Assembly: GCF_025460835.1 (NCBI RefSeq)
Contig: NZ_JAMXAY010000001.1
Coordinates: forward strand, 228,490-292,489
DNA from: Parapedobacter soli
GTDB lineage: Bacteria; Bacteroidota; Bacteroidia; Sphingobacteriales; Sphingobacteriaceae
DNA: 64,000 nucleotides
Direction: 5' to 3'
The first letter of the stretch is position 1, and every line of letters starts with the position of its first letter. Below the pieces are notes generated by a model, which did no database searches, was not told the origin of the DNA, and was given only the letters and a program-made list of their open reading frames with translations. The position numbers and the translations under genes are program-made. Of this stretch, positions 12,691 to 58,097 are shown in pieces.

Positions 12691-12740
12691 ATCTTGTACT
12701 TCCAATTTTCCAAGTCAACACATTTTCTCTTCAACACGCC

Positions 12741-13757: not shown

Positions 13758-13824
13758 ATCATTTCCCCTATCAGCCAAGGCTTACGGTTTCCTGCCCGTG
13801 GCTATGTATTCAATCACTTTATAC

Positions 13825-15177: not shown

Positions 15178-15182
15178 AATTA

Positions 15183-28680: not shown

Positions 28681-31600
28681 TCAGGCTCCAATACGTTCAA
28701 AATCCTTAGGCAACACGCCAAACTGCTTTTGGAAACACTTCGAAAAATATGATGCCGAGTTAAAACCAACCAGATATGCAATCTCACTGATTCGGTAATC
28801 CTTCTCCCGCAGCAATTCAGCCGCCTTTTTTAAACGTACCAACCGAATAAAATCATTGGGCGTCAGCTCGGAGATCTGCTTAACCTTCCTATAGAAAGTT
28901 GCACGGCTCATATTCAGCGCAGCGGCTAGTTTATCCACATCGAGGTCTACCTCGTCCAAGCGGGCGTGAATTGTCTTGATCAGTTGGTTCAAGAAACATT
29001 CGTCGGCTTTGGAGTGGGCAATCGTTTCATAGGCCGTTTCCGGCCGCCGTTGGTAGGCTTCCCGTATCTTGCGGCGTCCCTCTAGGAGGTTTTCAATACG
29101 GGCACGCAAATAATCAATCGAATACGGCTTCTCAATATATTCGTCTGCTCCGGTTTTCAGTCCGGCTATCTTCGATTGGAGACTCGTTTTGGCGGTTAAT
29201 AGGATGACGGGGATATGGCTAAATTTCAGGTCTTCCTTTACGCATTTACAAAATGTGATGCCGTCCATCACGGGCATCATGATGTCACAGATAATAATAT
29301 CCACTTGCGTTTCGGCCAGTATGTTAATCGCTTCTCGGCCATGGTCGGCCGCTAGCACGTGGTAATCGCTCTGAAGCTGGCTAGCAACGAATTGCCTAAA
29401 TTCGACGTTGTCCTCCACGAGAAGGATGGCCCTTTTTACGTCAAGCCGAAGCAATTCGTCCACTTCAGCTATTTGTTGAAGAGGATAATCTGCCGTGGCC
29501 GTTCCTATCGTATCTTCAACCCGTTCGTGGCAGGCCTGGCGGATGGGAAGCTCGAAAACAAAACAGGTTTCCGATGCAGATTGGGGCAAATACAAATCGC
29601 CGTTATGCAATTCGGCAAGTGACTTGGAGAAAGCAAGACCCAATCCCGAACCTTGGGTTTTCTCATCGAGTTTGAAAAACGGAAGGAAAATCTTGTCGGC
29701 AGCTTCCTGGGCGATAGGCTTGCCGTCATTTGCCACGGTCACCTTTACACACCCATCATGCTCGACCAACGAAACGCTGACGCATCTGTAAGCGTGCTTC
29801 AACGCATTGTGCAGCAGGTTGCTAACCACCTTACTGAAAATCTCGACGTCCAAATCGACGTAAACGGCTCCAGGAGGAAGCTCCATATCGATTTCAATCC
29901 GATTGAGTTTGGCCGAAGAAATGAACCGGCTGACCGTTTCGCGGATAACAAACACCAGGTCTGTTTGGACAAAGTGGACGGCTACACCCTTCGCTTCCGC
30001 TTTGCGGAAATCAAGTAGTTCGTTCACCAGTTTAAGCAAACGGTTCGTGTTGCGTTCCATAATCGAGAGGTTCTCCCAGTGAGTGTCGGTCGGGTCGGTA
30101 TGCTTCATTATTTCTTCCAAGGGTGCTTTTATTAAGCTAAGTGGTGTACGTATCTCATGCGTAATGTTGGTAAAGAAATCGATCTTCGTGTCGTAAAGCT
30201 CCTTCTCCTTCCGACGGGCAATTGCCTGCAGCATTCGCTTGTTGCGCGCACGCGTACGATCGGTAAAATACCGCACCACCCCATAGGTTAATAAAACGAA
30301 GAGAACAAGGTAAATAAAATAAGCCCAGCCTGTGCGGTAAAAGGGCGGAAGCACACGAATAGTTACGTGGTCGCCCTCATCGTTCCATACTCCATCACTA
30401 TTTGACGCTTTCACGCGGAAAATATAGTTGCCGGGCGGGAGATTCGAATACGTGACCCGCGGTTGATAATCCGTATATATCCACTCTTCATCCTTGCCTT
30501 CTAACCGATATGCATATTGGTTGCGTTGTGGTGACACATAACTCAATGCAGCAAAACTGATACTGAAAATAGAGGCATTGTGGGGGATCTCCAGCTCCCG
30601 CACACCAACCAGCTCCTGGTTGTGAAGTTGGATACCATTGATCACCACAGGTGGTGGCACTTCGTTCTGCCAAATAGTATACGGGGCGAAAGCGACAAAC
30701 CCTTTGATGCCTCCGAAATAAAGCTTGCCTCCCCTGCTGCGCAAGCCGGATTTGTAATTAAATTGGTCGCCAAGCAGGCCATTCGCATGGGTGTAAACCG
30801 TGATACTACGACTCTTATTATCTAGCTTAAATAAGCCGTTATTTGTGCTGCCCCAAATATGCCCCGATAGATCCACAACCAGCTGGTAGATGACATTATT
30901 GGGCAGCCCGCTATCTTCGGAATAAAAATCGGTAAACACATCACGTTCGCGATCGTAGCGAAACAACCCTGCACCTTCGGTACCCACCCATAAATGGTTG
31001 TGTTTATCGAGCAATAGGCAGGTCACTTTACCACTGGTCGCGTTGGTAGGAATCGGTGTGGCATAATGTTTCCAAGTGTCCGTATTGCGGTGGTAGGCAT
31101 AGAGGCCTCCGCCAATCGTGGCAAACCAAAGTACGCCCCTGTGATCTTCCACGATATCATTAACCTGGGCGGTAATCAATGAATCCTGTACCGGAACGAA
31201 CCCGTCGGTCCGTTCATCATATCGACATAACCCCATCATGGTGCCTACCCAAATGACGTTCATGTAATCCTTGTAGATGGAATAGATGTTATTGTTAATC
31301 AACGAACCTCGGTCGGATGAACTCCTATATTGTTTGTATCGTTCGGTCTTCGAGTCCAACACAAATAACCCTTCGGTAAACGACCCCACCCACAACCTAT
31401 CCCCGTCTTGCATAAGCGCATGCACGTTGGTGGCTGGCAAATAGCCATTCGTAAACCGCTTGGTCTCTGGGTCAAATCGGTGTAGACCAGCATCTTCCGT
31501 ACCAATCCAGATATGGTCGTCATCCGCCTCACAGAATTCACTGATACTTTTGCCTTTAATGGAATTGCTCCCCGTGACGGGGTAATATTTCTCAAAGAGG

Positions 31601-32673
31601 CTATAAGGCTCAATATAATAATTGACGCCTCCAAAAAAAGTACCCAACCACATCCCTCCCTCGCGATCTTGGTAAACGGAGTGTACGGCATTGTCAGTGA
31701 TAGAAAAGGTATCTCCGTTCACATGACGTAAGTTCTCGTACTGACGGGTTTGCGGATGGTAAATATAAAGGCCACTTTCCGACCCTATCCATAGATCGCC
31801 ATTGTCTGCGCGGGAGATGTGTCGTACATACAGCGGTCTGTCGCGACTGTCTCGCTCAAGTAGCGGCGAAAATGACCGCGTACGCAGATTAAAAATCTGG
31901 ACCCCACCGGTGGTCGTTCCTACGAGTAGGTTTTCGGCATCGAGCGGGGAGATGTCATTGACATCGTTGTCTTGCCCGGTAACCGAATTCGGCCGGATAA
32001 GAAACTGGGTGACGCGATCTTGCTCTGTATCTAGGCAATACATACCTTGGTGATACGTACCTATCCATACGTGGCCGGCGGTATCGAAGGCGATGCACCT
32101 GATCCATACCGGAGCTGGGCTACTACCGCTGGTCAAATCAAAATAAGTGAGTTGTCCCGATGGTGTTGCACGGAATACACCCTTATTAAAAACAGCCATC
32201 CAGATATTCCCATCGCGGTCTAGTTTGATGTCACGTACTAGTCCCGATACGTTTTTACCGTCAGCCGTCTCAGCGTTGTACCGCCGGAATCGTTCTGTAC
32301 GCGGATTGTATAGATACGCGCCATCGCTCGTACCTATCCAGAGTATGCCGTCAGTGTCTTGAGCAATGGCCGTAACCGTATTGCTTCCCAAGCTACAGCT
32401 GTCACGGCTATTTTTCTTAAATACCTTGAAAGTCTGCCCGTCATACCTGTTGAGTCCGTCCTGGGTACCAAACCACATATATCCCTGACGGTCCTGAAAT
32501 ATAGTATAAACGGAGCTTTGCGATAACCCATCTTCTACTTGGAGACTTCGGAAATAGTAGTTGCCCTGGCCATCCCGTGGCTTCTGTCCCCAGCAGACCG
32601 CGCAATCCAACAAAATAAGCACCCCGACCAGCCATAGCCGGTATGCCTTCGATTCAATTAACATTTTCCTCAT
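28681..32673 (-). CDS. hybrid two-component sensor/regulator (HTCS) of PUL 1
   Basis: Predicted 1,330-residue one-protein signalling system. ATG 32673 is chosen because it opens a signal sequence (MRKMLIESKAYRLWLVGVLILL) and avoids overlapping the gene upstream. Order: periplasmic two-component regulator propellers (about residues 40-690, many repeats of the GLWIGT type), Y_Y_Y domain (about 700-770), one transmembrane helix (783-803), histidine kinase with His839 in NITHEIRTPLS and an ATPase domain (LLHNALKHA; GSGLGLAFSKSLAE), a receiver domain with Asp1130 in IIICDIMMPVMDG, and a C-terminal AraC-type helix-turn-helix. Known HTCS proteins sense oligosaccharides in the periplasm and activate their PUL. 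As last gene of PUL 1 it most likely controls it. Confidence 0.95.
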   Translation of the reverse strand: MRKMLIESKAYRLWLVGVLILLDCAVCWGQKPRDGQGNYYFRSLQVEDGLSQSSVYTIFQDRQGYMWFGTQDGLNRYDGQTFKVFKKNSRDSCSLGSNTVTAIAQDTDGILWIGTSDGAYLYNPRTERFRRYNAETADGKNVSGLVRDIKLDRDGNIWMAVFNKGVFRATPSGQLTYFDLTSGSSPAPVWIRCIAFDTAGHVWIGTYHQGMYCLDTEQDRVTQFLIRPNSVTGQDNDVNDISPLDAENLLVGTTTGGVQIFNLRTRSFSPLLERDSRDRPLYVRHISRADNGDLWIGSESGLYIYHPQTRQYENLRHVNGDTFSITDNAVHSVYQDREGGMWLGTFFGGVNYYIEPYSLFEKYYPVTGSNSIKGKSISEFCEADDDHIWIGTEDAGLHRFDPETKRFTNGYLPATNVHALMQDGDRLWVGSFTEGLFVLDSKTERYKQYRSSSDRGSLINNNIYSIYKDYMNVIWVGTMMGLCRYDERTDGFVPVQDSLITAQVNDIVEDHRGVLWFATIGGGLYAYHRNTDTWKHYATPIPTNATSGKVTCLLLDKHNHLWVGTEGAGLFRYDRERDVFTDFYSEDSGLPNNVIYQLVVDLSGHIWGSTNNGLFKLDNKSRSITVYTHANGLLGDQFNYKSGLRSRGGKLYFGGIKGFVAFAPYTIWQNEVPPPVVINGIQLHNQELVGVRELEIPHNASIFSISFAALSYVSPQRNQYAYRLEGKDEEWIYTDYQPRVTYSNLPPGNYIFRVKASNSDGVWNDEGDHVTIRVLPPFYRTGWAYFIYLVLFVLLTYGVVRYFTDRTRARNKRMLQAIARRKEKELYDTKIDFFTNITHEIRTPLSLIKAPLEEIMKHTDPTDTHWENLSIMERNTNRLLKLVNELLDFRKAEAKGVAVHFVQTDLVFVIRETVSRFISSAKLNRIEIDMELPPGAVYVDLDVEIFSKVVSNLLHNALKHAYRCVSVSLVEHDGCVKVTVANDGKPIAQEAADKIFLPFFKLDEKTQGSGLGLAFSKSLAELHNGDLYLPQSASETCFVFELPIRQACHERVEDTIGTATADYPLQQIAEVDELLRLDVKRAILLVEDNVEFRQFVASQLQSDYHVLAADHGREAINILAETQVDIIICDIMMPVMDGITFCKCVKEDLKFSHIPVILLTAKTSLQSKIAGLKTGADEYIEKPYSIDYLRARIENLLEGRRKIREAYQRRPETAYETIAHSKADECFLNQLIKTIHARLDEVDLDVDKLAAALNMSRATFYRKVKQISELTPNDFIRLVRLKKAAELLREKDYRISEIAYLVGFNSASYFSKCFQKQFGVLPKDFERIGA

Positions 32674-32695
32674 AATCCATCGCCCACGCTGCTTG

Positions 32696-34264
32696 TCAAT
32701 GACTCGGATGCTGATCGATGCCCTCACTCGGCGTGTCTGAATACACAATATAATTCCGTAGGGTAATTGTATAATCATCATGCGGATTGGTTACCACCAA
32801 ACGGACATCGTGATTACCTTTCGGCAAACCGTAGACCCAACACACTTCATACCGACGTGTATTGAAATCAGTAGGCATTTTAAATGTCGACACCTGATCG
32901 CCATCAATATGCAGTTCAACCTCAAACACATACTCCGGAAGTGTAGATTGTCGCTTAGCCGCTCCGCCTCGAACAACAAGTCCTGTCCCTTCAAATGCGA
33001 GCGAAAACGTATCGTCCAGCACACTGTTTATCGACCTTTTGGCTATCGGATACGTCCCTTCGAAGCTTTTTTCATACCGCACGGGGAGGGGAGCAGTATA
33101 AGGTAACGCAACGGAGTCAGCCGCTACCGTACCTCCATTTTTGTCGATCATACCCAGTGCATGGTTATAGCTAATCTCATACACATCATTCAATGAAAAT
33201 TTGGTATGCATGAATTTCATATCTTCAATATCAGTGAGTCCCATTTTCCAGTAATCAGGAATACGGCTATACCCGAGCATCGTGCCTAATATGCCTGCGG
33301 CACTCGACGGGTTGCAATCGGAATCCTGACCAGCGCGCGTGGCAATTTCCAATGTTTGGGTAAAGTCGCCTCCGCCATACAGTAATCCCAGTACAATGTA
33401 TGCTGCGTTGATTTTCGCATCGATATTATATGCGGCGAAAACGCCGTCCGGGCATCCCACTTCGGCCGACCATTTTTTTTGGATCTCAAACCAATTTTGC
33501 TTCCAATCGTCGGGGTGTGTTTGGTGCCATTGGATAACGTCAGCAATACACTGATAGAAATCACTTGCCTCTGGAATCGTTTTAAGGGCTTCTGAAACAA
33601 TATATTGCACATCGTCCGACACGAATGCTAGCGTATACATCGCCCCCACATAAACCCCTCCGTACCAACCATCCCCGTAATTCATAATGTGTCCCACCCT
33701 ATCGCTGAGTGCAGATGCTGAATTCGGCATACCGGGATTCATCAGCCCAGCAAAGTCTGACTCGATTTGGTAATCAATATCGTCTGCATGCGGGTTATTT
33801 AACCAATGCCCCGATTCGGGTGGGTTTATACCATTTAAAATATTATGCCGGGCCGCCTGATTCGCATGCCACAATGGGTACGCTGCCGTCGCAAAGGCCG
33901 CTGCGAATGAATCCACAGGTGCGTCCAAACCAACCCGTTCCAAAACATCCACAAAGGTAAGGTCCATGTAAATATCGTCATACAATCCCGGATGATTTTC
34001 CATGGTGGTTCGCAAATATCCATCATACCACTCCAACGGATGGTTGTCGTGGATGTAAGACCCTTGGAAATGAAATTCGGTAGGACCACCAAACGTGACA
34101 CCGATGGTTTGGCCAGCCCACCCACCTTTGATTTTGTCTCGAAGCATGTCTTTGCTAAGCGTGGTTTTCAGCTGAGCTCTATCGGGGATATTGCAAGCAG
34201 CGACGCAGCCGAACACAGCGAGCATCATCGCCCTAACATGTACGGAAATCCGTTTAACAAGCAT
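32696..34264 (-). CDS. secreted ADP-ribosylglycohydrolase-family lipoprotein
   Basis: Predicted 522-residue lipoprotein. ATG 34264 is used (the longer frame begins on TTG); the signal peptide ends in CVAAC with Cys24 acylated. The body is the all-helical ADP-ribosylglycohydrolase fold: KIKGGWAGQTIG, the metal-binding YDDIYMDLTF (Asp96, Asp97, Asp101) and GQDSDCNPSSAAGILG (Asp314, Asp316). These match the two di-magnesium motifs of the family. After about residue 370 a beta-sandwich-like C-terminal domain is added. Classical members remove ADP-ribose from proteins in the cytosol; a secreted form in a polysaccharide locus more likely cleaves a glycosidic bond of a sugar substrate. That is inference. 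Confidence 0.85.
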   Translation of the reverse strand: MLVKRISVHVRAMMLAVFGCVAACNIPDRAQLKTTLSKDMLRDKIKGGWAGQTIGVTFGGPTEFHFQGSYIHDNHPLEWYDGYLRTTMENHPGLYDDIYMDLTFVDVLERVGLDAPVDSFAAAFATAAYPLWHANQAARHNILNGINPPESGHWLNNPHADDIDYQIESDFAGLMNPGMPNSASALSDRVGHIMNYGDGWYGGVYVGAMYTLAFVSDDVQYIVSEALKTIPEASDFYQCIADVIQWHQTHPDDWKQNWFEIQKKWSAEVGCPDGVFAAYNIDAKINAAYIVLGLLYGGGDFTQTLEIATRAGQDSDCNPSSAAGILGTMLGYSRIPDYWKMGLTDIEDMKFMHTKFSLNDVYEISYNHALGMIDKNGGTVAADSVALPYTAPLPVRYEKSFEGTYPIAKRSINSVLDDTFSLAFEGTGLVVRGGAAKRQSTLPEYVFEVELHIDGDQVSTFKMPTDFNTRRYEVCWVYGLPKGNHDVRLVVTNPHDDYTITLRNYIVYSDTPSEGIDQHPSH

Positions 34265-34300
34265 AGTCAAATCTAGCGATTTATATTAATGAATCAACCC

Positions 34301-37120
34301 CTATTTATCCTTTACGCATCGGAATCCCACCGTCGCGTTGCGTTCAAAGCCCTGTGATACACGCAATAGGTATTGCCGGTAATGCAATTCCCGTGGCCCA
34401 CCCTGCACGTACCACCAGCTCGACGTGGGGTTGAAGTAGGAACCACCCTTCATCATAATGTAGGTGTATGAGCCGCTTTTGTACACATCATTGGTGAGCT
34501 GCCAAACCGACCCAACCAAATCTTCCAAGCCATAGGGATTGGCACCGCGTTTGTAGTTCCCAACGGGATACGGTTTGCCGCCCAGGTTGGCCAGCTTGGG
34601 GTCCATGCCTTTAATCTTGTAAACCGTCAAGCTATTGGTTACCGGTTCCAGTTCGCGGGTAATATTTTTGATATCTCCTGACCACGGCCACTCGCGGCAA
34701 TCCGGTGTCTGTGCAGCGTACTGCCATTCGGTTTCGGTGGGCAGTCGCTTGCCGGCCCAGCGGGCGTAGGCTTGTGCGTCTTCATAACTCACGTAAACCA
34801 CCGGATACCGTTCTTCACCCTTAACCGGCCGGCCGTCGCGCCAGTGCTTCAGGAAGTTTACTGTATCGCTAGGGTGGTAGCCGCTTGCCCGCATGAACTG
34901 CAGAAAATCGGCATTCGTGACTGGATGTCGGTCCATCCAAAATGCTGGAAACTCGAATCCCTTGCCTTGGTTATGCTTGGGGTAGGCAATAAACTCGTCA
35001 CCATTAGTGGCGTTAAATACGAAAGATCCGGCCGGAATTTCAACCATGCCATCCGTGTTACCCACTTTGGGTGACGGCGACACATGGCTGGCCAGGCGCG
35101 GTGTGCCGGCTTCGATGGTCACTACCCGCTCGTCGAGCAGCCTGCCGTCATCAAACAGCTGAACCACCAACTTGCCCTCGTGTCGACCGAAATGTTCGAA
35201 GATGTCCAGTTCATGGTGGCCTATGGCCAACTCCACCGGTTTCTTTTCGTAGTCGGGTACACCGGCCCATATTTCGATTACGTTCCCCCGGGAAGCACTC
35301 ACGCGCAACACATTATTATGCATGGCCACTTCGAGTTCGATGGGCAACTGAGCTATACAGCCCACTTCGCCTTCGTTATTGGTGCCGAGGTCGAACCGAT
35401 CGAACGCATGGACTTTAGCCACCGTGTAAAACCTACCGTTGCGCTCAACGGGTGTAACCTCTTCATGGTTCCATAGGTCCACAAAGTGGGTACCCTCGGA
35501 GGGATTAACCTCGAATAGCGGCTCATGCAGTCCATCCGGCTTTATACTGTAGATAGTGTAGATGGTCTTTTCCGCTGTGGACCATTGGTTTACATACACA
35601 CTATCCACCAAGGTGGGAATCAAAGGCGTATACCCACGGCTCAGAAAATTATGCGTATTCTGGCGCAATATTCGGCTGGTGCGGCCCAGGTAATGGTACT
35701 GCTCATCTACCCAGTCGGGTTGACCGGGCGCAAAGATATTAAGTTCAGTACCGTATCCATTGAAAAAAGCCGTAGCGAACTCGCGCTTTATGGGTTCCTT
35801 GGCCAACTCAGCCACCCTGTAGATGGTGAACTCTGGCTTGATAAATTTATTGAGGTTGAACATGGGTGGGTAGTATAACGCATTATGCACGCGACCAGAC
35901 ACAATGCCCTGCATATCTTTCGGCACGGCGAACCCTTCGCTGTACATAATAACACCGGGCTTGGCCCGGTCTGCGGCTTCCTGCAGCTCCACACTCGAGC
36001 CTCCCTTGGTATCAAGAACCACCCCATCCGCCCCGGTATGCATAATGAGGTCATATAAGCCATCCATGTGCCCCTCATCGCGGGTGCTTTCATCCCAGGG
36101 GTTGTAGCATAAGAAAAACGCCGTGCCCTGACTACGGCAGTATTCCGCATCCCGGCGTATTCCCTCCATGCCCCCCGGTAAATCGCGAAACATGTCGAAT
36201 TGGTTTCGCTGGTCGATGCCCAATGTGGGCCATGTGGGCCACAGGCCAATGACATCGTCGCCTCCGTAGAGTCGTTTCCCACGCTCGATGAAGGCGGGCA
36301 ATCCCGACTGCCCGGTTTCACTGTCGTAGTAAAACTTGTCCCATGCCATAATCAGATGCATCACGTAGGTGTGCCTTATCCATTTGAGGTCCTCGCGTTC
36401 AAATAAGCTGTTGTCAAATGTATCGACATCGTAGAGGTAGCGTTCCTGAAAGATTTTCTTCAGCCCCGCCTGCCAGTCGCCCTGATAGGTATCGGCGAAA
36501 AAGGTATAATCGATGGATCCTCCCGGTGCAAGCGTGGTTTCAAAACGGCGGAGCGTGGCATTTTGACCACTTGCCCGGTCGCGGCGCACGAGTGCGCACA
36601 CCGACAGGTCGTCGCCGAGCGGGGAACCGCTGTAGCCGAGCTCCCAGGCGTTATCTGGCAGGATGCAGTTTACCGGGGTCCTGTTCGGGAGAAATAGGTG
36701 CGACCGCGAGAGACCATGCTTCCCCTTTCCTGTAATGTATGCAGATTTGCCGGTCCGGCCTAAAGGAACGACGTTGGCTAATACGACGGTATCGGCCGAA
36801 ACATTGGTGAACCGTAGCATCCCCTTAATACCCGGTGTGAAATCAGGGTCAGGCTTAAAGACGACTTCCATTACCTCTTTTGCTGTATTGGCGGTCAGCT
36901 GGCGATCGTCCACTTCGAATACAACCAGCGGCAGCGGTTTCACATTGACCAAGCTGGCGCCACTAGCGTCCACGAACCCCGTTACCTCGCCATGCCCAGG
37001 CGATAACGACAACTGCTTCAGCTCCTGAGCGTTCAGAGCGGAATCTGCGCACAAAGCCACGTATAACAGGAATAAGCAAGAGATGAATTTCCCAGTAGTA
37101 TCAGATAATGTTTTAATCAT
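34301..37120 (-). CDS. TIM-barrel glycosidase-like protein fused to a formylglycine-generating-enzyme fold
   Basis: Predicted 939-residue secreted protein (signal peptide to about residue 31). Residues 35-215 look like a beta-sandwich. Residues 230-500 look like a TIM barrel of the alpha-galactosidase-like kind: FFLCYNPWDES on a strand end, Asp370 in GVVLDT and Glu395 in MYSEGF are candidate catalytic acids. A beta domain follows (about 510-675). Residues 690-937 are the SUMF1/FGE-sulfatase fold (DGMVEIPAGSF, FWMDRHPVTNADF, GKRLPTETEWQYAA, GFRCV). The paired cysteines that make FGE an oxidase are absent, so this part is probably a binding module. It lies 12 bases after the GH127 gene and 36 before the ADP-ribosylglycohydrolase. 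The glycosidase family is not assigned. Confidence 0.75.
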   Translation of the reverse strand: MIKTLSDTTGKFISCLFLLYVALCADSALNAQELKQLSLSPGHGEVTGFVDASGASLVNVKPLPLVVFEVDDRQLTANTAKEVMEVVFKPDPDFTPGIKGMLRFTNVSADTVVLANVVPLGRTGKSAYITGKGKHGLSRSHLFLPNRTPVNCILPDNAWELGYSGSPLGDDLSVCALVRRDRASGQNATLRRFETTLAPGGSIDYTFFADTYQGDWQAGLKKIFQERYLYDVDTFDNSLFEREDLKWIRHTYVMHLIMAWDKFYYDSETGQSGLPAFIERGKRLYGGDDVIGLWPTWPTLGIDQRNQFDMFRDLPGGMEGIRRDAEYCRSQGTAFFLCYNPWDESTRDEGHMDGLYDLIMHTGADGVVLDTKGGSSVELQEAADRAKPGVIMYSEGFAVPKDMQGIVSGRVHNALYYPPMFNLNKFIKPEFTIYRVAELAKEPIKREFATAFFNGYGTELNIFAPGQPDWVDEQYHYLGRTSRILRQNTHNFLSRGYTPLIPTLVDSVYVNQWSTAEKTIYTIYSIKPDGLHEPLFEVNPSEGTHFVDLWNHEEVTPVERNGRFYTVAKVHAFDRFDLGTNNEGEVGCIAQLPIELEVAMHNNVLRVSASRGNVIEIWAGVPDYEKKPVELAIGHHELDIFEHFGRHEGKLVVQLFDDGRLLDERVVTIEAGTPRLASHVSPSPKVGNTDGMVEIPAGSFVFNATNGDEFIAYPKHNQGKGFEFPAFWMDRHPVTNADFLQFMRASGYHPSDTVNFLKHWRDGRPVKGEERYPVVYVSYEDAQAYARWAGKRLPTETEWQYAAQTPDCREWPWSGDIKNITRELEPVTNSLTVYKIKGMDPKLANLGGKPYPVGNYKRGANPYGLEDLVGSVWQLTNDVYKSGSYTYIMMKGGSYFNPTSSWWYVQGGPRELHYRQYLLRVSQGFERNATVGFRCVKDK

Positions 37121-37132
37121 AACGTGTTGAGT

Positions 37133-39193: not shown

Positions 39194-39196
39194 TCA

Positions 39197-41917
39197 TTAC
39201 ATCCGGGTATCCATCATCATCCGATTGATAATCCCTGCCCAGATATACGTTTTATGATAACCGCCCCACGCCACGTCGGGGCTATAAAATTCCCAGAGAT
39301 TGTTGGTGTCCTTCAATACCGAAATCATCCCCTCGGCTACGCGGTCTACCAACTCACGGGCCTCTTCATGGTAGCCGTAATCCTGCAAACCCAGCATAAT
39401 CAGGTAGTTCCACTGCACCCAAACTGGGCCATTCCAATACCCTTTGTCGTTATAGTAGCTATCTTGTGCAGATAAGGTGGGAACGCCGTATTCGCGCCAG
39501 AACTGCGCCGTATCCGTGAGTTTGTTTACCAATCGTGCGGCGCGTTGCTCATCGGCTACGCCCGCCCACAACGGCAGGAAACCGATGATCTCGTCGCGTT
39601 TCAGATCATCGACCTCCTTATAGGTAAATGTATGCGTGTCCTTGTCAACCTGATAATAGAACCCGTTGGTCTCGTCCCAAAAAGTATCGTTGATCAACTG
39701 TGTACGCCGCTCGTGATCGGCCCGCCATACCGCCGCCTCGCCATCGAGACCCAACACCAGCGCCATCTGCTCCAGCGATTTTGCTTCTTTAACGAGCATG
39801 CAATTGAGGTCAAGGCTCTCGAAATTAGTGGGGAAGCCCACTTCATCCCATACGGCCACCAATGCATCCCGTACGGATTCGAGCACAGCATGGCCACCCC
39901 ATTCACAAAGCCCATCTCCGTCGCTGTCGCGATTATCGACGATAAAGTGGAACAGCTTTTTCGACGATCCGTACATTTCGCGGAGAAACGCGGTATCTTG
40001 CGTAATCTGATATACCTCCCAGTTGAGCCAAGCATACCACGGTGCCGATGTCGTGAGTTGCCCGTTGTGCTCGATGATCTCATCGAGGTACCCCCCCGTA
40101 CGGTAGTTGATGTATCCATTCGGGTATTGCCGTTCCAGATACACGCGTTGCGAATTCATCGCCCCTCGGGGGTCGATGTCCGCGTAGGCCAGCATAGCAA
40201 TGCTTTCATGGAATACCTGCCCACCGTGCCCCCAGCCCCAAGTTGGCTCGCGCGAGAAGACATAGTAATTGTAGCTGGATTTACCTTCAGGCGGATAAAA
40301 CACCTGCCGCATCATATTAGCCGCGCTCCAGTACAAGGCTTCCTTATCGGGATCATCGAAGTCCGGACGGGGAGTATTGGCAAAGAACGCCTCGTTCTGC
40401 CGTTGGTAGGGGTCTAATGCCACATCTAACAATGGCCGTGCCGCGGACACCAGGGAGTCGGCGGGTGTCGCGATGGGCGCGACGCCACGGACAAACCGCA
40501 GATGCTTCGTGTCTCCGCCGGCTAATTGAAGGGCATGCTCGAAAGCGACCACCTTAGCATAAGGCACTGCATCTTTAATCAACGTTTCTTCAGTTCCCCG
40601 CTGTACAAATCCCAGGAACGCAGTGTGACTAACAGTAGTTACTTCAGGCTGGTGGATGCCTAGTTGGCCGTCTTCGCTGACGGGAATCACCAGATACCCG
40701 TAGGTATTATCCGGCTTCGCTGTCGTGTCCACGTAGGTATGAGCATCCACCGTTGCTACCCGCTCGTAATGCGGAGCAGGGTAATGGCGGCGGTATACCG
40801 AAAACGAACGCAGCGCGGGGTTGGCGTCCCACGTTAGCCTGACGTGGTTATGGTCATTCCGCTGCAAGTCAACACGATCCACCATCGGCAACGTAGCGGT
40901 ACGTGAAAGGTCCACATCGTACCGCTGACTCGTGGCAGCCAACCCGCCAGCTATGCGGCCCGAAAGGCCACTCGTCTCGTCATATGTCTGGATGGTGAAC
41001 TCCCTTGCCTCCCGGTTTAATAAGGCTGCCTCCAACCTGAAAAATCCGCCTTGATCCACTGCTGCGTGCATCCCTCCCCATACCGGGCTATTCTCGGTGA
41101 TGAGTTTGGCTGGGTTATCGTCCACAAAGAGCTGGAGGCGTAGGGTGTTCCGCGCACCGGCGATGCGCTGCTTTCCGGGCAGATAGGCCCGGCCATTGAC
41201 CTGAAGCATCGGTTTGCGATCGTTCTCAACCGAATTGGGTAGCTGGAAAGGTTCACCGGCCTCGCTGGTGAATGCCCCCGTAGTTGTTGGCTTCTCAGAT
41301 GACAACCAGACATTGCGAATGCTGTCCGTGTAGGGCACGTCGTGACCAAGGGTCCATGCATCCGGGTACTCTTGGTGTTCAAATAGAAGGTGGTCTCCGC
41401 GCGATACTATGTGCTGGAACGCCCGGTTAGCATTCCGCATGTAGGGGTACATGGTTAGCGCAACGGCCGTATCCGTCTTATTCGTAACCCGCAGATCCAG
41501 CAACGCCATCGTGGAACTGTGCACGACGAACCACGCCTCCACTTCAATGCCAGCGAATGGGTGGTAGTTATACCGTACCATGTCGGGATAACTCGCCGTT
41601 ATAGTCGGTGGGCGATGCATATCAGCCACGCGGTACACCCAACGGTCACCCAGTTTGAAGCCTAAGGCAATGTCGCCACCGGTATCGGTGAAAAAGTCGG
41701 CTCCCAGACTATCGACGTTATACCGGAACGCGTAACCTTGGTCGAGCACAAAATTTGACCGCTCCGGCACTGCCGCATAGGTCGTGTACAAGGGGTAGTC
41801 TTCGCCGGCGCTCAAAGACGAAAGATACGGGCGCTGGCGCTCTTGGCAGCAAGCAAAAAAACCTATCAATATCACGACGACAGCCTCTCTCACCGCCCTC
41901 AGCTTACTTCGATTCAT
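39197..41917 (-). CDS. GH63/MGH1-like glycoside hydrolase lipoprotein
   Basis: Predicted 906-residue lipoprotein (signal peptide ends in GFFACC). N-terminal beta-sandwich domains to about residue 335, a fibronectin type III-like domain about 343-428 (VRLTWDANPALRSFSVYRR), then an (alpha/alpha)6 domain about 520-900 of the GH63 / mannosylglycerate-hydrolase type. Supporting segments include WGWGHGGQVFHESIAM, DSDGDGLCEWGG, and the end GYWNGPVWVQWNYLIMLGL with FYSPDVAWGGYHKTYIWAGI. This clan covers inverting alpha-glucosidases, mannosidases and trehalases, so the exact bond is not predictable. Its start overlaps the end of the upstream gene by 14 bases. Confidence 0.82.
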   Translation of the reverse strand: MNRSKLRAVREAVVVILIGFFACCQERQRPYLSSLSAGEDYPLYTTYAAVPERSNFVLDQGYAFRYNVDSLGADFFTDTGGDIALGFKLGDRWVYRVADMHRPPTITASYPDMVRYNYHPFAGIEVEAWFVVHSSTMALLDLRVTNKTDTAVALTMYPYMRNANRAFQHIVSRGDHLLFEHQEYPDAWTLGHDVPYTDSIRNVWLSSEKPTTTGAFTSEAGEPFQLPNSVENDRKPMLQVNGRAYLPGKQRIAGARNTLRLQLFVDDNPAKLITENSPVWGGMHAAVDQGGFFRLEAALLNREAREFTIQTYDETSGLSGRIAGGLAATSQRYDVDLSRTATLPMVDRVDLQRNDHNHVRLTWDANPALRSFSVYRRHYPAPHYERVATVDAHTYVDTTAKPDNTYGYLVIPVSEDGQLGIHQPEVTTVSHTAFLGFVQRGTEETLIKDAVPYAKVVAFEHALQLAGGDTKHLRFVRGVAPIATPADSLVSAARPLLDVALDPYQRQNEAFFANTPRPDFDDPDKEALYWSAANMMRQVFYPPEGKSSYNYYVFSREPTWGWGHGGQVFHESIAMLAYADIDPRGAMNSQRVYLERQYPNGYINYRTGGYLDEIIEHNGQLTTSAPWYAWLNWEVYQITQDTAFLREMYGSSKKLFHFIVDNRDSDGDGLCEWGGHAVLESVRDALVAVWDEVGFPTNFESLDLNCMLVKEAKSLEQMALVLGLDGEAAVWRADHERRTQLINDTFWDETNGFYYQVDKDTHTFTYKEVDDLKRDEIIGFLPLWAGVADEQRAARLVNKLTDTAQFWREYGVPTLSAQDSYYNDKGYWNGPVWVQWNYLIMLGLQDYGYHEEARELVDRVAEGMISVLKDTNNLWEFYSPDVAWGGYHKTYIWAGIINRMMMDTRM

Positions 41918-43061: not shown

Positions 43062-43083
43062 ATCGCAAGTATGTTAAAAGAAA

Positions 43084-44184: not shown

Positions 44185-44204
44185 CTCATTCAGTCTATGT
44201 GGTT

Positions 44205-44978: not shown

Positions 44979-44995
44979 CTTCTCATAATTTGATT

Positions 44996-46612
44996 TTACC
45001 ACGTGGTTTTTCCATTCCAGTAGGGTGTTTGCTGCACCATTTTGTTATTGGTGAGGATAATTCCGCTTACTGGCCAATAGTATCCCTGCTGCGCATAACG
45101 GTCAGCATTCATAGCCGATGAAGGATCGGGAAAATAATTGTTCCGCACATAATCGAAGAAAATCTTTCCCTCACCGATGAGCTCAGCTGTGCGTTGCCGC
45201 ATAATTTCCTGCATATAGTCACTACCGGTGTAAGGTAATAAGCCGGCCCGTTCCCTAATTTCGTTGATGATGGGAACAGCCAGTGCCGCTTGTCCATTTT
45301 TCACGTAAGCTTCGGCGAGCAACAACTTGACATCGGTGAACCGGAAAATAGGGATGTTCGAATCGGCGAAATAGGCAACATACTCGTTCCACTCGCGCGA
45401 CGGATCGACCATGAACGATGCGAACTTTGTCATCCACGTGACCTTGGTGCGGTCAGTAGCAACCTGACTAACATCCGAAAAGGGCTCATTGTATGGCGAA
45501 TCCCACGCGTCGAAGAACAGGTCGCCCCGTTTATCTTGCGGGTACTCAGGATAAATAAACTGCTTTTTTGATGCCGGTACGAAGTTGATATTGCTAGCTC
45601 GGTCTTTATTCACATCACCATCCAAGGGTATTAACTTCGTGGTTAGCGCTTGAATACCACCATAGTCGGCCCGGTAAGTCTCTCCCTGCTCGTAGGATAT
45701 ATTGAGTTCGAAAACCGCTTCGTTGGATTGCCCTTGGTATATCGCCTTGACAGCCGATTCACTGCTATAGGGTTCCAATGCATACCGGCCGTTTTGCACC
45801 GCATCCGTGAGCTGTTGCAGGGCAGCCGAGCGGTAAGTCTCATTGGGCTGGCCGTCACGTTCCTTGAGGAACGCCATCCACAGATTCGCATATCCACCCA
45901 ACGCGAGTGCGCCTCCCTTATTGGCTCGGATACCCCATGCTGCAGTGCCGGGAGTACCGTAGTCAAGCCGGCTGATTGCTTCGGTGACATCGCTAAGTAC
46001 CGATTCGACTACCTCGATATCGGTAGACCGTCCTTGGTAGATGGGCACACTTTCGCCATCGATAACCTGGTTGGAATTTTCGATTGCGTCAAGCACCAAT
46101 GGGGCGTTACCCCAAATGGTGGCGATATGGTAATAGATAAGCGCCCGTAAAAAATACGCCTCGCCCAGTAACTTGCTTTTGGCTCCCGAAGCGAACACAT
46201 TGTCGGCCATTTTCGGAATGTAGCTGATGCATTGATTCAATTGGGCAATTACCTTGTAATAACCTCCCCAATTAGCAAAAGATTCCAGCGCACCCCATGA
46301 CTTCTGTGTACCACTTACATTGGTGAAATCGGGGATATGGTAAAACGCATTGCTGGAACCACCGTTCCATCCGCGGTTGAAATACCCCGTTGTCACATCC
46401 CCCCGTTCGTAAAGCTGTGCGTTGACCATAAGGCCGCGGTACAGCGCATACGCACCTAGCACCGCTTTTTCCGCATCCTGCTCACTCGACCAGTACACAT
46501 CGTTATAGACCAGATTGACTTGTTCGGGCGACAGAAAATCCTTGCCGCATGATGCCGCCAAGAGGCTAAACACCATCATACCCGTCATCAGTTTCTTCAT
46601 TGTCTTTTTCAT
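44996..46612 (-). CDS. SusD/RagB-family glycan-binding lipoprotein of PUL 1
   Basis: Predicted 538-residue lipoprotein (LLAASCGKDFL, acylated Cys). TPR-like helices and the family features are present: VYWSSEQDAEKAVLGAYALYRGL near the start, SKLLGEAYFLRALIYYHIATIWGNAPLV near residue 140, and the C-terminal RERAGLLPYTGSDYMQEIMRQRTAELIGEGKIFFDYVRNN. SusD proteins sit as lids on their SusC partner and capture oligosaccharide at the cell surface. It starts 11 bases after the SusC stop. An internal ATG at 46600 is an alternative start. Confidence 0.95.
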   Translation of the reverse strand: MKKTMKKLMTGMMVFSLLAASCGKDFLSPEQVNLVYNDVYWSSEQDAEKAVLGAYALYRGLMVNAQLYERGDVTTGYFNRGWNGGSSNAFYHIPDFTNVSGTQKSWGALESFANWGGYYKVIAQLNQCISYIPKMADNVFASGAKSKLLGEAYFLRALIYYHIATIWGNAPLVLDAIENSNQVIDGESVPIYQGRSTDIEVVESVLSDVTEAISRLDYGTPGTAAWGIRANKGGALALGGYANLWMAFLKERDGQPNETYRSAALQQLTDAVQNGRYALEPYSSESAVKAIYQGQSNEAVFELNISYEQGETYRADYGGIQALTTKLIPLDGDVNKDRASNINFVPASKKQFIYPEYPQDKRGDLFFDAWDSPYNEPFSDVSQVATDRTKVTWMTKFASFMVDPSREWNEYVAYFADSNIPIFRFTDVKLLLAEAYVKNGQAALAVPIINEIRERAGLLPYTGSDYMQEIMRQRTAELIGEGKIFFDYVRNNYFPDPSSAMNADRYAQQGYYWPVSGIILTNNKMVQQTPYWNGKTTW

Positions 46613-46623
46613 ATTATTTCGAC

Positions 46624-49600
46624 TTAAATATTGATGTTCAGACCAATGACCATATTGCGAGAGATGGGATAACCCTGCCCATTATAATAGCCCATTTTGG
46701 TGATAACACGTGGGTCTGGCACCGACGATTGTTTCCACATGTAGACGTTACGCATGGTCCCGTATACATTAATGCCGCGCACCCGCAGCCGCTGGATAAA
46801 TCTCTGCGGAAGATTGTAGGAGAGAGTGACGTTGTCAATACTCCAATAATCGCCTCTTTCGATGAACATGGATGACTCCCGGAACGAACGGGCACTCCCA
46901 CCATCGCTATACGTAATATAGCGCATGGGATAGTAAGCGTCATCTCCCGGCTGCTCCCAGAATTTGACATTGTCCGACAGATCATACAATGCACGGGTAA
47001 AAAAGAGCGTTTGATCATCGTAGCTCCAGAGCATCTGCTGGAGGTTTGAATTGAAAATGTAGTGACCAAATGCAAAAGACGACTGGATACGTAACGAGAA
47101 GTTGTTGTACCTGAAGTTGGTCTGAAACCCACCCATGATTTTTGGTTCAGGCGATTTCCCCTGAATAATCTTACGATCGTTACCGTAATTGTGTCCATCA
47201 ATCTGATAATCTCCATTGACATCGGTAAACAGCGGCATCCCAGGGAAAATTTTTCCTTGTTGGTTGAGTGCCAAGCCGGCATCAGCACCATAATACTTCA
47301 TCGGCTCGCCCGTCATCGGATTCACTGGCAGATCATTGACGTCCTGCAGGGGGCCGAGGTATTCATACGTATAATATTGGAACGCTGGCTGGCCCACCAC
47401 AAAAGCATAATTTGAACCGAAGTAATCCCTGCCGCCATTGCCAAGTCTGGAAATCACAGTTTGGTTTCGTGCCAAATTCAAGGTGAAGTCCCATTGCGTA
47501 GACGAAGTGCGGGGGAAAAGGTAGGTCGTAAATGAAGCCTCCCAACCGTTACTGATCATATCCACCAAATTAGACCGGATGGAATTGTAACCGACAAACT
47601 GTGGTAATACAGAGGTGTATACCGCTCCGGAAGTATGTCTTGAGTAGACATCTGCGATTATATAGAGCCGACGATTAAACAGCTCAAGGTCAACCCCGAG
47701 GTCGGACTCGGTAGATTGGCTCCACGACAGTGATCGGTTGGCGATTTTGTCAAAGTCGGACACCAATGTACCGACTCCCCCATATGTCTTGATGTCGAAT
47801 CGGTTTGCATAGATATTGTTGATACCCGCACCGATATTGGAAGTAGAGATGAACGAATTGTACTGTAACAAAGGGTCTGGATCGATACTTCCTGAAGACC
47901 CATAGGACAACCGAATCTTCCCGAAATTCAACACCGATTTGGCCGACTCCAACCAAGGTTCGTCCGAGAAAATCCAATAGGTTTTGACAGAAGGAAAGGT
48001 AGCCCATTTATTGTTGGCCCCGAACCTTGAAGACCCATCCCTACGTAGCACACCTTCTATTTTGTAACGGTTTTTGTACCCGTACGAAACGTTGGCGAAG
48101 TACGAAAGCAGATTGCTTTTTACAATGTCGCTGATTCCCGAGGTTTCCTCCACCTTATAGTTCTGGATTACCTTTACATAGTCGCTCGGCCCATCTTGGC
48201 CATACAGATTGGTCGCATACTGCCGCTCCATATTAACTTCTGTTCCCAACAACGCTGTAAACTCATGATCTTCGAACGTTTTATAGTAACTCAATAGAGA
48301 GAGGCCGTTTAAAACAAAATTCTGGCTGTTGAGTGATTGCCCTTGTGAAAGGCCATTATTAGACGCCGTACTCGGCACAAAATAATCCCGACGACCGAAA
48401 TTCGCGGATAAGCCACCACGATTATCCCACGTCAAGCCGTCCACCAACTTAATACGGAGACTCTCGTTCAGATTCAACATGTAACTGTTATTGGATTGAT
48501 ACGTATCTCCCAATTTACCTGAAAGCAAATTGAGCTCATCTGGTGTCCGGTAGAAAAGCGATGACGGCAACTGCGTAGGATCAGTGGGGAAAGAACGCAG
48601 CTTGTCAGTTTGACCACCTTGTCTGCCCGAGCTAGTGAGCATAATCGACAAATCGTTATGGAGAAACTTATTGATATCGTTGGTGAGGCTAGCGTTCATC
48701 GTGATGCGCTTGAAATCGAAACCAACCAGCACACCTTGTTCATCGTAATACCCCAAACCTACCCGGAAGGCGCTTTTCTCAGTGCCGCCGTCCATACTCA
48801 AATTAAATTGTTGGTTAAACCCAGTTTGGTAGAACAGGTCTTGGTAATCATACGCCCCGTTGAACGCAGGGTTGTACTTATCCGTGAATACCGCCGGGTA
48901 CATGTAACCCTCGATTTCCAGGCCGTTCCGTACGTCAACAGCTGCCTTGTCCCCAAATAACGCTTGGATTGTTTGGTTATAAAGCCGCATTTTTTCTTGG
49001 CGCTCTGCCTCCCCGATGAAGACCGGTAGCCTGCTCGGCTCGAAATTCCATCCAGAAGCACTGCTGAAATTGAAGCGCGTAGCGCCCTTGGTACCCCGCT
49101 TCGTCTTAATAACGATTACACCGTTTGCCCCTCGCGAGCCGTAGATTGCGGTAGCAGCCGCATCCTTCAGCACGGTGATGGATTCGAAATCATTCGGGTT
49201 CATCGTAGCGAAAAAATCATTTTGCGTAACGTCAAATCCAGCAAGATCCGAGAGTGACATCGGCACCCCATCAACAATATATAATGGATTGCTCAACCCC
49301 ATCACATCACTTGATTCGGAGAGGTTAGTATTGCCACGGATTACCAAGCCGCCGCTGGCGCCACCGGGCATACCCGTCCGCAGGACCGACTGCATACCGG
49401 GCACCTGGCCGGCCAGTACTTCTAGCATCGATGCCGCGGGAATATCCTGCAGATTATCCATCTTTACCGTAGCTACAGAACCCGTAAGGTCACGGCGGGT
49501 AACGGTTTGGTATCCCAGTACAGCCACTTCGTCGAGCACGTTCTCGTCCGTTTCAAGGACGATGTTTAGCGTAGCCCCCCCGGCAACCACTTCCTTGGTG

Positions 49601-49917
49601 GAATAGCCTACCCGGGATACAATCAGCACTGTACCCATAGGCACTTCGATTGTGAAATCACCAACTGCATTCGTTACGACGGCCCTGTCAAGGCCCCTGG
49701 CTTTTATAGAGGTCCCTTCAAGAGCCTCGCCCGTTACTGCATCCGTCACTTTTCCGTGCACCAACGTTTGCTGGTGTACCGGCGTGGGCAACAGAGACCC
49801 TACGACGGGTTCGATGACCATGGCGGACAGAATAGCAGTTAGCCATACCAAATGGAGTTGGCCAACCACCACGTGGAAATACAAACGGACTTTACATGTG
49901 CGTTTAGTTGTCTTCAT
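46624..49917 (-). CDS. SusC/RagA-family TonB-dependent glycan transporter of PUL 1
   Basis: Predicted 1,097-residue outer-membrane protein. Order: signal sequence, carboxypeptidase-D regulatory-like domain (VHGKVTDAVTGEALEGTSIKARG, about residues 52-130), plug domain with the SusC signature ATAIYGSRGANGVIVIKTKRG near residue 255, and a 22-strand barrel to the C-terminus, which ends in the usual hydrophobic-aromatic pattern (GLNINI). It imports oligosaccharides with energy from TonB. No STN domain is present, which fits control by the HTCS and not by an ECF/FecR pair. First gene of PUL 1. Confidence 0.96.
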   Translation of the reverse strand: MKTTKRTCKVRLYFHVVVGQLHLVWLTAILSAMVIEPVVGSLLPTPVHQQTLVHGKVTDAVTGEALEGTSIKARGLDRAVVTNAVGDFTIEVPMGTVLIVSRVGYSTKEVVAGGATLNIVLETDENVLDEVAVLGYQTVTRRDLTGSVATVKMDNLQDIPAASMLEVLAGQVPGMQSVLRTGMPGGASGGLVIRGNTNLSESSDVMGLSNPLYIVDGVPMSLSDLAGFDVTQNDFFATMNPNDFESITVLKDAAATAIYGSRGANGVIVIKTKRGTKGATRFNFSSASGWNFEPSRLPVFIGEAERQEKMRLYNQTIQALFGDKAAVDVRNGLEIEGYMYPAVFTDKYNPAFNGAYDYQDLFYQTGFNQQFNLSMDGGTEKSAFRVGLGYYDEQGVLVGFDFKRITMNASLTNDINKFLHNDLSIMLTSSGRQGGQTDKLRSFPTDPTQLPSSLFYRTPDELNLLSGKLGDTYQSNNSYMLNLNESLRIKLVDGLTWDNRGGLSANFGRRDYFVPSTASNNGLSQGQSLNSQNFVLNGLSLLSYYKTFEDHEFTALLGTEVNMERQYATNLYGQDGPSDYVKVIQNYKVEETSGISDIVKSNLLSYFANVSYGYKNRYKIEGVLRRDGSSRFGANNKWATFPSVKTYWIFSDEPWLESAKSVLNFGKIRLSYGSSGSIDPDPLLQYNSFISTSNIGAGINNIYANRFDIKTYGGVGTLVSDFDKIANRSLSWSQSTESDLGVDLELFNRRLYIIADVYSRHTSGAVYTSVLPQFVGYNSIRSNLVDMISNGWEASFTTYLFPRTSSTQWDFTLNLARNQTVISRLGNGGRDYFGSNYAFVVGQPAFQYYTYEYLGPLQDVNDLPVNPMTGEPMKYYGADAGLALNQQGKIFPGMPLFTDVNGDYQIDGHNYGNDRKIIQGKSPEPKIMGGFQTNFRYNNFSLRIQSSFAFGHYIFNSNLQQMLWSYDDQTLFFTRALYDLSDNVKFWEQPGDDAYYPMRYITYSDGGSARSFRESSMFIERGDYWSIDNVTLSYNLPQRFIQRLRVRGINVYGTMRNVYMWKQSSVPDPRVITKMGYYNGQGYPISRNMVIGLNINI

Positions 49918-52550: not shown

Positions 52551-52572
52551 TAATAAAAGACAGATACAGCCA

Positions 52573-54489: not shown

Positions 54490-54496
54490 CTTACAC

Positions 54497-57925: not shown

Positions 57926-57969
57926 TACGTTTGGGGGTTTAGACAGTTAACTGACTAGTTTAAATACTC

Positions 57970-57998
57970 CAAATTTACTACTGGTTGTGTCTGAACAA
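57970..57998 (-). promoter_or_regulatory. promoter upstream of the PUL 2 SusC
   Basis: Minus strand: TTG (57996-57998), 18 bases, TAAATTTG (57970-57977, a full TAnnTTTG match). The start would be near 57964, about 40 bases before ATG 57925. A CAGTTAACTG palindrome (57944-57953) lies in the leader. This would let susC be expressed apart from the sigma/FecR genes. Confidence 0.5.
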
Positions 57999-58097
57999 CA
58001 AGGGGGGTGTTCGCAGCACTTCCCTTTGTTCGTGATTGGGTTATGTATCTCTCTTCATACTGATAAGCTTTTTGTTTTCAAATTGGTTATTGAGTTC

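Follow-up and report, generated by a model that had tools for sequence, protein, structure and literature searches.

Polysaccharide utilization loci (PULs) for ribose, D-arabinan and carrageenan are the closest described counterparts of the locus reported here, a ten-gene unit of Parapedobacter soli. The ribose-utilization PUL of Bacteroides thetaiotaomicron, rus, spans BT2803-2809 (excerpt of PMC12596196). PUL42 of Dysgonomonas gadei, for D-arabinan, includes a fucose isomerase and enzymes of glycoside hydrolase (GH) family 172 (excerpt of PMC10115798), besides GH183. The carrageenan PUL of Zobellia galactanivorans carries three GH127 genes and a GH129-like gene, and enzymes of both types were identified as exo-alpha-3,6-anhydro-D-galactosidases (excerpt of PMC5698469). 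The Parapedobacter unit lies on the minus strand at positions 28681-49917 of a 64,000-nucleotide stretch of contig NZ_JAMXAY010000001.1, hereafter the window, and runs from a SusC-like transporter to a hybrid two-component system regulator (HTCS). With SusC next to SusD, and with degradative enzymes and a regulator encoded in the same direction, it is a SusCD/HTCS PUL of ten genes; PULs of this kind commonly lead to new enzyme families.

The locus resembles rus in its SusCD system and in that several close relatives of its ADP-ribosylglycohydrolase-family protein adjoin ribokinase and RusT-like transporter genes; unlike rus, the operon in the window is without ribokinase, RusT and nucleoside hydrolase, and adds a GH127-like enzyme, a GH63-like enzyme, a fusion of a barrel to a formylglycine-generating enzyme (FGE) fold (barrel-FGE) and an unrecognised lipoprotein (LIPO5). 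It is furanosidase-rich like PUL42, and in other genomes the protein families of the window are repeatedly accompanied by GH172 and fucose-isomerase-like genes; the window PUL itself is without GH172, DUF4185 and isomerase. As in Zobellia, GH127 stands together with an alpha-barrel enzyme whose fold, here as modelled, falls in the region of GH36 and GH129; in contrast to Zobellia, there is no sulfatase among the ten genes, sequence searches of PDB and Pfam did not link the barrel to these families, and it is fused to FGE. At the level of single enzymes, the GH127-like protein aligns in its catalytic Glu and Cys/zinc residues with the beta-L-arabinofuranosidases 4qjy and 3wkw, but it is distant from them in sequence (best phmmer score 92 bits) and the GH127 C-terminal domain PF20737 was not detected by Pfam scan. 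The barrel likewise resembles the GH36/GH129/GH101/GH13 alpha-glycosidase barrels in its modelled fold, and an Asp following strand 4 and a Glu following strand 5 agree with GH13 and GH101, but no sequence match to them was found and it carries the additional FGE-fold domain.

A preliminary description of the window had proposed ten same-strand genes with small gaps or overlaps and an unusual enzyme set. The layout is borne out by the open reading frames (ORFs), and the enzymes are borne out by Pfam/NCBIfam matches for GH127, MGH1/GH63-like, FGE and ADP_ribosyl_GH domains, with the lipoprotein unmatched; two small genes (fasciclin-like and DUF5007-like) are added to those it had named. We tentatively read the locus as a PUL whose target is a heteroglycan or glycoprotein that contains galactose and is rich in furanose; to this PUL a ribofuranosidase-like enzyme would have been added. 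The probability of this reading is roughly 0.45. We infer its substrates, linkages, order of action and module roles as follows: (i) SusD, the fasciclin-like and DUF5007-like proteins and LIPO5 would capture oligosaccharides at the cell surface, and SusC would import them; (ii) a recurrent core of GH63-like enzyme, GH127-like enzyme and barrel-FGE alpha-glycosidase would trim the glycan or glycoprotein; (iii) within this core, two exo-enzymes would cut: the GH127-like enzyme a beta-L-arabinofuranoside or a stereochemically related alpha-D-galacto-furanoid or anhydro unit, and barrel-FGE as a retaining hydrolase of the alpha-galactoside type that uses the FGE fold to bind sugar; (iv) the ADP-ribosylglycohydrolase, whose relatives lie in ribose-utilization operons, would free a ribofuranosyl unit; and (v) the HTCS would sense a product.

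Recurrence of the enzyme core

Recurrence was examined with barrel-FGE as the anchor. The gene was detected in 15 of 395 genomes of the phylum, including its own (E 1e-40), and a profile scan of named genomes confirmed at least 545 loci, the best 80 of which were analysed (47 over 22 kb, 33 not). ORFs in these relatives were called mechanically, and labels correspond to the best BLAST match above 70 bits to reference proteins. Elsewhere in the Bacteroidota the enzymes of the core are again found in each other's company; the gene-neighbourhood check suggested with the preliminary description shows the set not to be a one-off. GH127 was found in 30 of the 80 loci, 25 of them in the same co-directional run, and in 22 of the 47 loci over 22 kb, against 0 of 8 loci of the control anchor described below. 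GH172 (DUF2961) followed with 14 loci (11 in the run), then LIPO5 with 8 (7), all of these with GH127 and/or GH172; GH63-like with 7 (7), as for a GDE/GH116-like family (c3); aldose epimerase with 5 (5); and ADP-ribosylglycohydrolase with 3 (1). The PUL core links three furanosidase-type families (GH127, GH172 and ADP-ribosylglycohydrolase) and recurs across many Bacteroidota genera, whose names suggest that they come from soils, lakes and animal hosts. The part of the Creative Commons-licensed PMC literature that was covered yielded no earlier account of the gene set, PULDB and CAZy lying outside the search.

Individual loci point to a recurrent enzyme core with exchangeable modules. In the nearest relative, Parapedobacter pyrenivorans (L089), the GH63-like (71% identity), GH127-like (79%), barrel-FGE (78%) and HTCS (70%) genes follow one another as in the window, the SusCD pair ahead of them is a different one, and no ORF in the 22.8 kb examined there was labelled as LIPO5, fasciclin-like, DUF5007-like or ADP-ribosylglycohydrolase. 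An uncultured Bacteroidia genome (L096) carries SusC, SusD, fasciclin-like, DUF5007-like, LIPO5, two GH172, barrel-FGE, GH127 and GH63-like genes in a single run, and a same-class genome (G321) keeps the order from SusC through barrel-FGE with a LacI-type gene inserted. The combinations in these three loci show that the core of enzymes recombines with the surface module. The unit is patchy in distribution: of nine genomes examined for the genus, two, its own among them, have the barrel gene. In G321 (L030/L031, contig C1 3290665-3307488), the SusC, GH63-like and barrel-FGE genes are each split into two ORFs, with one in-frame TAG in barrel-FGE; the splits reflect decay or sequencing error.

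Unlabelled operon neighbours were also scanned (74 in total, of which 73 were hand-picked from 106 listed and one came from outside that list). The counts were low (GFO/IDH/MocA 4, FecR 4, beta-helix 3) and revealed no common theme. Uroporphyrinogen-decarboxylase-family genes recur with barrel-FGE (L039:9720-10739 and L097:4654-5739; in G147, in G151 by clustering, and in L097). At L118:12780-16998, genes for a GFO/IDH/MocA oxidoreductase and a 3-keto-disaccharide hydrolase follow barrel-FGE, and the oxidoreductase cluster has members in 5 of the 80 loci.

Barrel-FGE, GH127-like and GH63-like enzymes

The barrel-FGE protein comprises an N-terminal beta-rich region, a (beta/alpha)8 barrel at residues ~239-594 (35339-36406) and an FGE-fold domain at residues 687-939 (34304-35062), and its AlphaFold2 model has a predicted local distance difference test score (pLDDT) of 89.0 and a predicted TM-score (pTM) of 0.85. 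For the barrel, Foldseek placed GH36 alpha-galactosidases first among the glycosidases (E 1e-14); GH129 and GH101 came next (both E 1e-12), among FGE and other rows. By VIA, the barrel reached Z 20.9 to GH13 (329 aligned, root-mean-square deviation (rmsd) 3.2) and Z 19.1 to GH27 (310 aligned, rmsd 3.9), and residues 687-939 reached Z 22.5 to an FGE-fold protein. In retaining GH13 and GH101 enzymes an Asp follows strand 4 and a Glu follows strand 5. The equivalent residues in the window protein, D370 and E395 at the ends of strands 4 and 5 as counted on the model, are invariant in 41 of 41 sequences of alignment A3. The barrel thus models as an alpha-glycosidase-type (beta/alpha)8 fold. Here and below, alignments are hand-picked subsets: A3 joins the window sequence to 40 of the 75 long ORFs with the barrel; A5 the window with 12 of 18 and 8 of 20 GH127-type sequences; A6 the window with 6 of 7, the cut L143 being omitted; and A8 the window with 3 of 3 named-genome and 2 of 8 other sequences.

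When the protein and the A3 profile were searched against the PDB by sequence, FGE-fold chains were the only matches. Neither PDB nor Pfam offers a sequence relative of the barrel region, so regarding it as a new glycosidase family, judged against these two databases, is reasonable. The earlier suggestion that some of these proteins may found new families is retained for the barrel, and barrel-FGE is the one good candidate that the PUL holds: a widespread fusion with no sequence relative of known structure. In FGE enzymes the active-site cysteine pair presumably sits upstream of the C-terminal GFRC stretch. No such conserved pair was found in the window protein, as between residues 872 and 934 Cys reaches at most 8 of 41 sequences in any A3 column; Cys is frequent only at 844 (29/41), 871 (19/41) and 935 (41/41). 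Because this pair is missing and the operon is without a sulfatase, a role of the FGE part as sulfatase activator was rejected as improbable. A 704-residue barrel-FGE variant (31% identical) was observed in G305 (L061:9252-12922), directly after an ADP-ribosylglycohydrolase gene and SusCD.

For the GH127-like enzyme, E325, C327, C408 and C409 are invariant in 21 of 21 sequences (A5). In the alignment the first two fall opposite residues 338 and 340 of 3wkw and the last two opposite its CC, and we take the catalytic/zinc residues of HypBA1 to be E338, C340, C417 and C418. The catalytic Glu and Cys/zinc residues are thus intact as judged by alignment; beta-L-arabinofuranosidase activity is putative, other GH127 enzymes acting on 3,6-anhydro-D-galactose. 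The aceric acid hydrolase of rhamnogalacturonan-II (NF049879) was rejected as an assignment, the score of 107.8 bits being far below the NCBIfam cut-off of 950. The profile of the GH63-like enzyme matches YgjK (105.6 bits), and its E876, counted along the alignment, corresponds to YgjK position 727, which we take to be the base Glu.

The pairing of these folds also bears on a carrageenan-like galactan system, in which GH127 and a GH129-like barrel would act on 3,6-anhydro-galactose as their Zobellia counterparts do. The barrel model does lie near ZgGH129 at the Foldseek E-value given above, but the ten genes include no sulfatase domain or further catabolic enzyme, and many host names suggest soil or lake, a habitat inferred from the names (yet two are Maribacter); we regard this explanation as highly improbable.

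Sugar identity and the accessory proteins

The preliminary description had suggested pentofuranose side groups as the target. The furanose part of that suggestion stands: furanose chemistry is supported by the intact GH127 site, the recurrent GH172 neighbour and the company that relatives of the ADP-ribosylglycohydrolase keep in ribose operons. The restriction to pentose is not borne out. The ring of beta-L-arabinofuranose resembles that of alpha-D-galactofuranose, and because of this likeness, the anhydrogalactosidases in Zobellia GH127 and the galactose genes of distant clusters, galactose is as likely as pentofuranose. In the distant same-phylum clusters, one representative per cluster was scanned and other members were labelled by clustering. 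Beside relatives of barrel-FGE, LIPO5, GH127 or GH63-like, GalT was found in G319, G147, G200 and G071, and galactokinase in G319, G200, G071 and G345b; together with the recurrent aldose epimerase, these genes indicate galactose at least as much as pentose.

The same clusters add GH172 (G319, G147, G169 and G129), ribose-type ATP-binding cassette (ABC) genes (G319, G147 and G169) and fucose-isomerase-like genes (G147 and G169, each scanned singly), and so, with D. gadei PUL42 as precedent, they lend something to a substrate such as actinobacterial arabinogalactan or another microbial glycan of D-arabinofuranose or D-galactofuranose. However, GH172, DUF4185 (GH183) and GH43 domains are not among the ten genes of the window, and no GH172 label was given in the 22.8 kb of P. 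pyrenivorans, where DUF4185 and GH43 were not looked for. Such a substrate is quite unlikely, and for mycobacterial arabinogalactan, listed earlier among substrates to assay, the window itself, being without GH172 or DUF4185, gives no support.

Several observations weigh against the proposed galactose-containing, furanose-rich target and the roles assigned to its core. No galactose or pentose metabolism gene lies inside the ten genes, GalK/GalT labels were given in 0 of the 80 barrel-FGE loci, and 45 of the 80 have no listed partner in the same run. The ribose-type ABC label rests on best NCBIfam models (AraG/RbsA, RbsC and RbsB) that all score below their cut-offs. Outside the PUL, the P. soli genome contains AraA, galactokinase and a RusT-like permease; since AraA and galactokinase are both present, neither sugar is favoured, and own-genome metabolic genes were set aside as non-discriminating. 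For the barrel, the Foldseek alignments to GH36, GH129 and GH101 have TM-scores of only ~0.2-0.4 with large rmsd, and none of these families is among the 50 VIA rows listed. The catalytic acid Asp of the GH63-like enzyme could not be placed, as the YgjK alignments stop short of that stretch. Against the pentofuranose suggestion, the ADP-ribosylglycohydrolase is an accessory to the PUL core, absent from the 22.8 kb around the P. pyrenivorans core.

For the ADP-ribosylglycohydrolase, the genome yielded no second protein of the Pfam family. Its D97, D98, D315 and D317 are present in 6 of 6 aligned sequences and presumably correspond to the metal-binding Asp pairs (D97/D98 and D315/D317) of the DraG/ARH N- and C-terminal motifs; by sequence, the PDB gave a single row (E 0.81). 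Relatives at E 1e-20 occur in 14 of 395 genomes, with a close group of nine including its own, the other eight of which are 53-60% identical. Around these eight, a PfkB ribokinase was found at 5, a ureide-permease/sugar-transport (RusT-like) gene at 4 and a nucleoside hydrolase once. Ribokinase, a ureide-permease-type transporter and nucleoside hydrolase are, we assume, also the enzyme make-up of Bacteroides rus. This company would suit a variant of the Bacteroides ribose-utilization system with ribose substrates (nucleosides, ADP-ribose or ribofuranosyl polymers) as the main target. Yet none of the three genes is among the ten, the glycohydrolase is missing around the core of the nearest relative, and as a control anchor the eight loci gave GH127, GH63-like and LIPO5 labels at 0 of 8 (GH172 at 2 of 8), though one of them (G305) adjoins the barrel-FGE variant; we consider a ribose main target very unlikely. 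A single run in Maribacter (L092) has barrel-FGE on one side of an ADP-ribosylglycohydrolase gene (50%) and c3/GH127/GH127 on the other, and thus the barrel-FGE/ADP-ribosylglycohydrolase pairing of the window recurs at least once elsewhere. A gene adjoining another relative (L084:8930-10723, G202) has a weak FGE match (26.9 bits, cut-off 23.3), a further hint that the two families keep company.

The fasciclin-like and DUF5007-like genes occupy the usual position of surface glycan-binding proteins, and the products are probably a surface binding protein and a surface glycan-binding protein, respectively. The fasciclin-like gene co-occurs with SusD, DUF5007-like and LIPO5 genes in G321, L093, L096 and L118. 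LIPO5 had no match in Pfam or NCBIfam at E 0.001 and was found in 8 of 395 phylum genomes including its own, which is also the only one among 60 genomes examined as relatives. Its H246, E249 and H289 are kept in every aligned sequence (12 of 12; 9 of 9). The AlphaFold model is moderate (pLDDT 71.2, with 88 of 385 residues below 50) and suggests a weak metzincin-like fold by Foldseek (best E 1.5e-3); the best VIA row is 6o38 chain C (Z 9.1, rmsd 4.1, 165 aligned), which we take to be the CpaA metalloprotease, with other rows at about 7. Argonaute MID domains also score near Z 7, like most metzincins, which makes the metzincin likeness tentative. The metzincin motif HExxHxxGxxH is not present in LIPO5: the window sequence reads E242-SYG-H246, and the first-His position is E in 6 of 12 sequences and H in 6 of 12, followed by S, D or N and never E. 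A PDB profile search gave cytochrome c3 rows only (E >=0.035), which were taken as chance.

These features bear on a plant or algal hydroxyproline-rich glycoprotein (extensin or a green-algal wall protein) as the substrate, from which GH127 would remove beta-L-arabinofuranose and barrel-FGE serine-linked or terminal alpha-galactose, while a metzincin-derived LIPO5 would bind or cut the glycosylated peptide. Published abstracts assign GH127 activity on beta-L-arabinofuranosides of such glycoproteins, the LIPO5 model has its metzincin likeness, and an M24 peptidase-like gene is present in three distant clusters; against this, LIPO5 is without HExxH, its model is moderate with Argonaute domains scoring near Z 7, and by Pfam the ten genes show neither a GH43 nor a GH51 domain. 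We hold it unlikely. Doubtful, too, is a broader proposal of an undescribed PUL class for a glycoprotein or microbial glycan, in which barrel-FGE would represent a new retaining alpha-glycosidase family with a degenerate FGE sugar- or peptide-binding module, LIPO5 a new metal-site family that descends from metzincins and acts on the backbone bearing the glycans, and the ADP-ribosylglycohydrolase an extracellular ribofuranosidase. With the galactose-containing, furanose-rich target still preferred, the question of bacterial diet is narrowed to a short list of testable substrates.

LIPO5 relatives with an N-terminal extension were observed in other classes (L036:17651-19723, L049:204-2279, L050:15571-17634 and L052:14918-16990). 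By domain scan the first has a Por secretion tail, and the C-termini of the others look similar; the type IX system may thus export members of the family as well. A family of 733-738 residues accompanies LIPO5 or barrel-FGE in three loci (L093:3857-6058, L120:305-2521 and L132:3446-5659); its L093 member is a right-handed beta-helix, possibly another glycan-cleaving enzyme.

Gene layout and neighbouring features

All ten ORFs are present in the ORF list (Table 1). Six of the intergenic gaps are 3-30 bases, SusD and the fasciclin-like gene overlap by 7 bases, and the lipoprotein and GH63-like genes by 14. The longest HTCS ORF overlaps that of the ADP-ribosylglycohydrolase by 86 bases; when the internal ATG at codon 37 is taken as the likely start, this overlap becomes a gap of ~22 bases. 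The HTCS is complete by Pfam domain content, and the lipoprotein status of several PUL proteins was judged by eye from their N-termini.

Table 1. Features of the ten-gene PUL and its upstream boundary (positions in the window)
Feature	Position	Strand	Evidence
SusC-like TonB-dependent transporter (P0009)	46624..49917	-	TIGR04056 671.2 bits, cut-off 368.25
SusD-like protein (P0008)	44996..46612	-	SusD_RagB 81 bits, cut-off 23.1
Fasciclin-like small protein (P0007), 265 aa	44205..45002	-	Fasciclin 20.6 bits, below cut-off 22
DUF5007-like protein (P0006), 366 aa	43084..44184	-	DUF5007 23.9 bits, below cut-off 25
Unrecognised lipoprotein LIPO5 (P0005), 385 aa	41904..43061	-	No Pfam/NCBIfam match
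GH63/MGH1-like (alpha/alpha)6 enzyme (P0004)	39197..41917	-	MGH1-like_GH 150.9 bits, cut-off 27
GH127-like enzyme (P0003)	37133..39193	-	GH127_cat 106.7 bits, cut-off 24.9
Barrel-FGE fusion (P0001)	34301..37120	-	FGE C-terminal domain 145.8 bits, cut-off 23.3
ADP-ribosylglycohydrolase-family protein (P0002)	32696..34270, likely start ATG 34264	-	ADP_ribosyl_GH 127.4 bits, cut-off 26.2
HTCS (P0010)	28681..32781, likely start near 32673	-	Reg_prop, Y_Y_Y, HisKA, HATPase_c, Response_reg, HTH_18
Terminator-like hairpin, 15 pairs, upstream of SusC	50227-50194	-	Terminator scan

The terminator scan around the 5′ boundary gave 2 sites against 0.5 expected and found no terminator 3′ of the HTCS. On the minus strand near the hairpin, a promoter scan whose models do not cover Bacteroidota promoters gave no sigma-70-like site. 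Composition was also considered: the G+C content of the window in 4-kb steps is 47.5-52.2%, with the maximum (52.1-52.2%) at 36001-44000 within the PUL. As 12001-16000 outside the PUL also reaches 51.8%, G+C decides nothing on a recent foreign origin, which was set aside as a conclusion. The hairpin is the likely boundary between the ten-gene PUL and an upstream SusC/SusD/DUF4886 unit. This second unit, on the same strand directly upstream (50271-59264), consists of SusC/SusD, a DUF4886/Big_2 protein and a FecR regulator.

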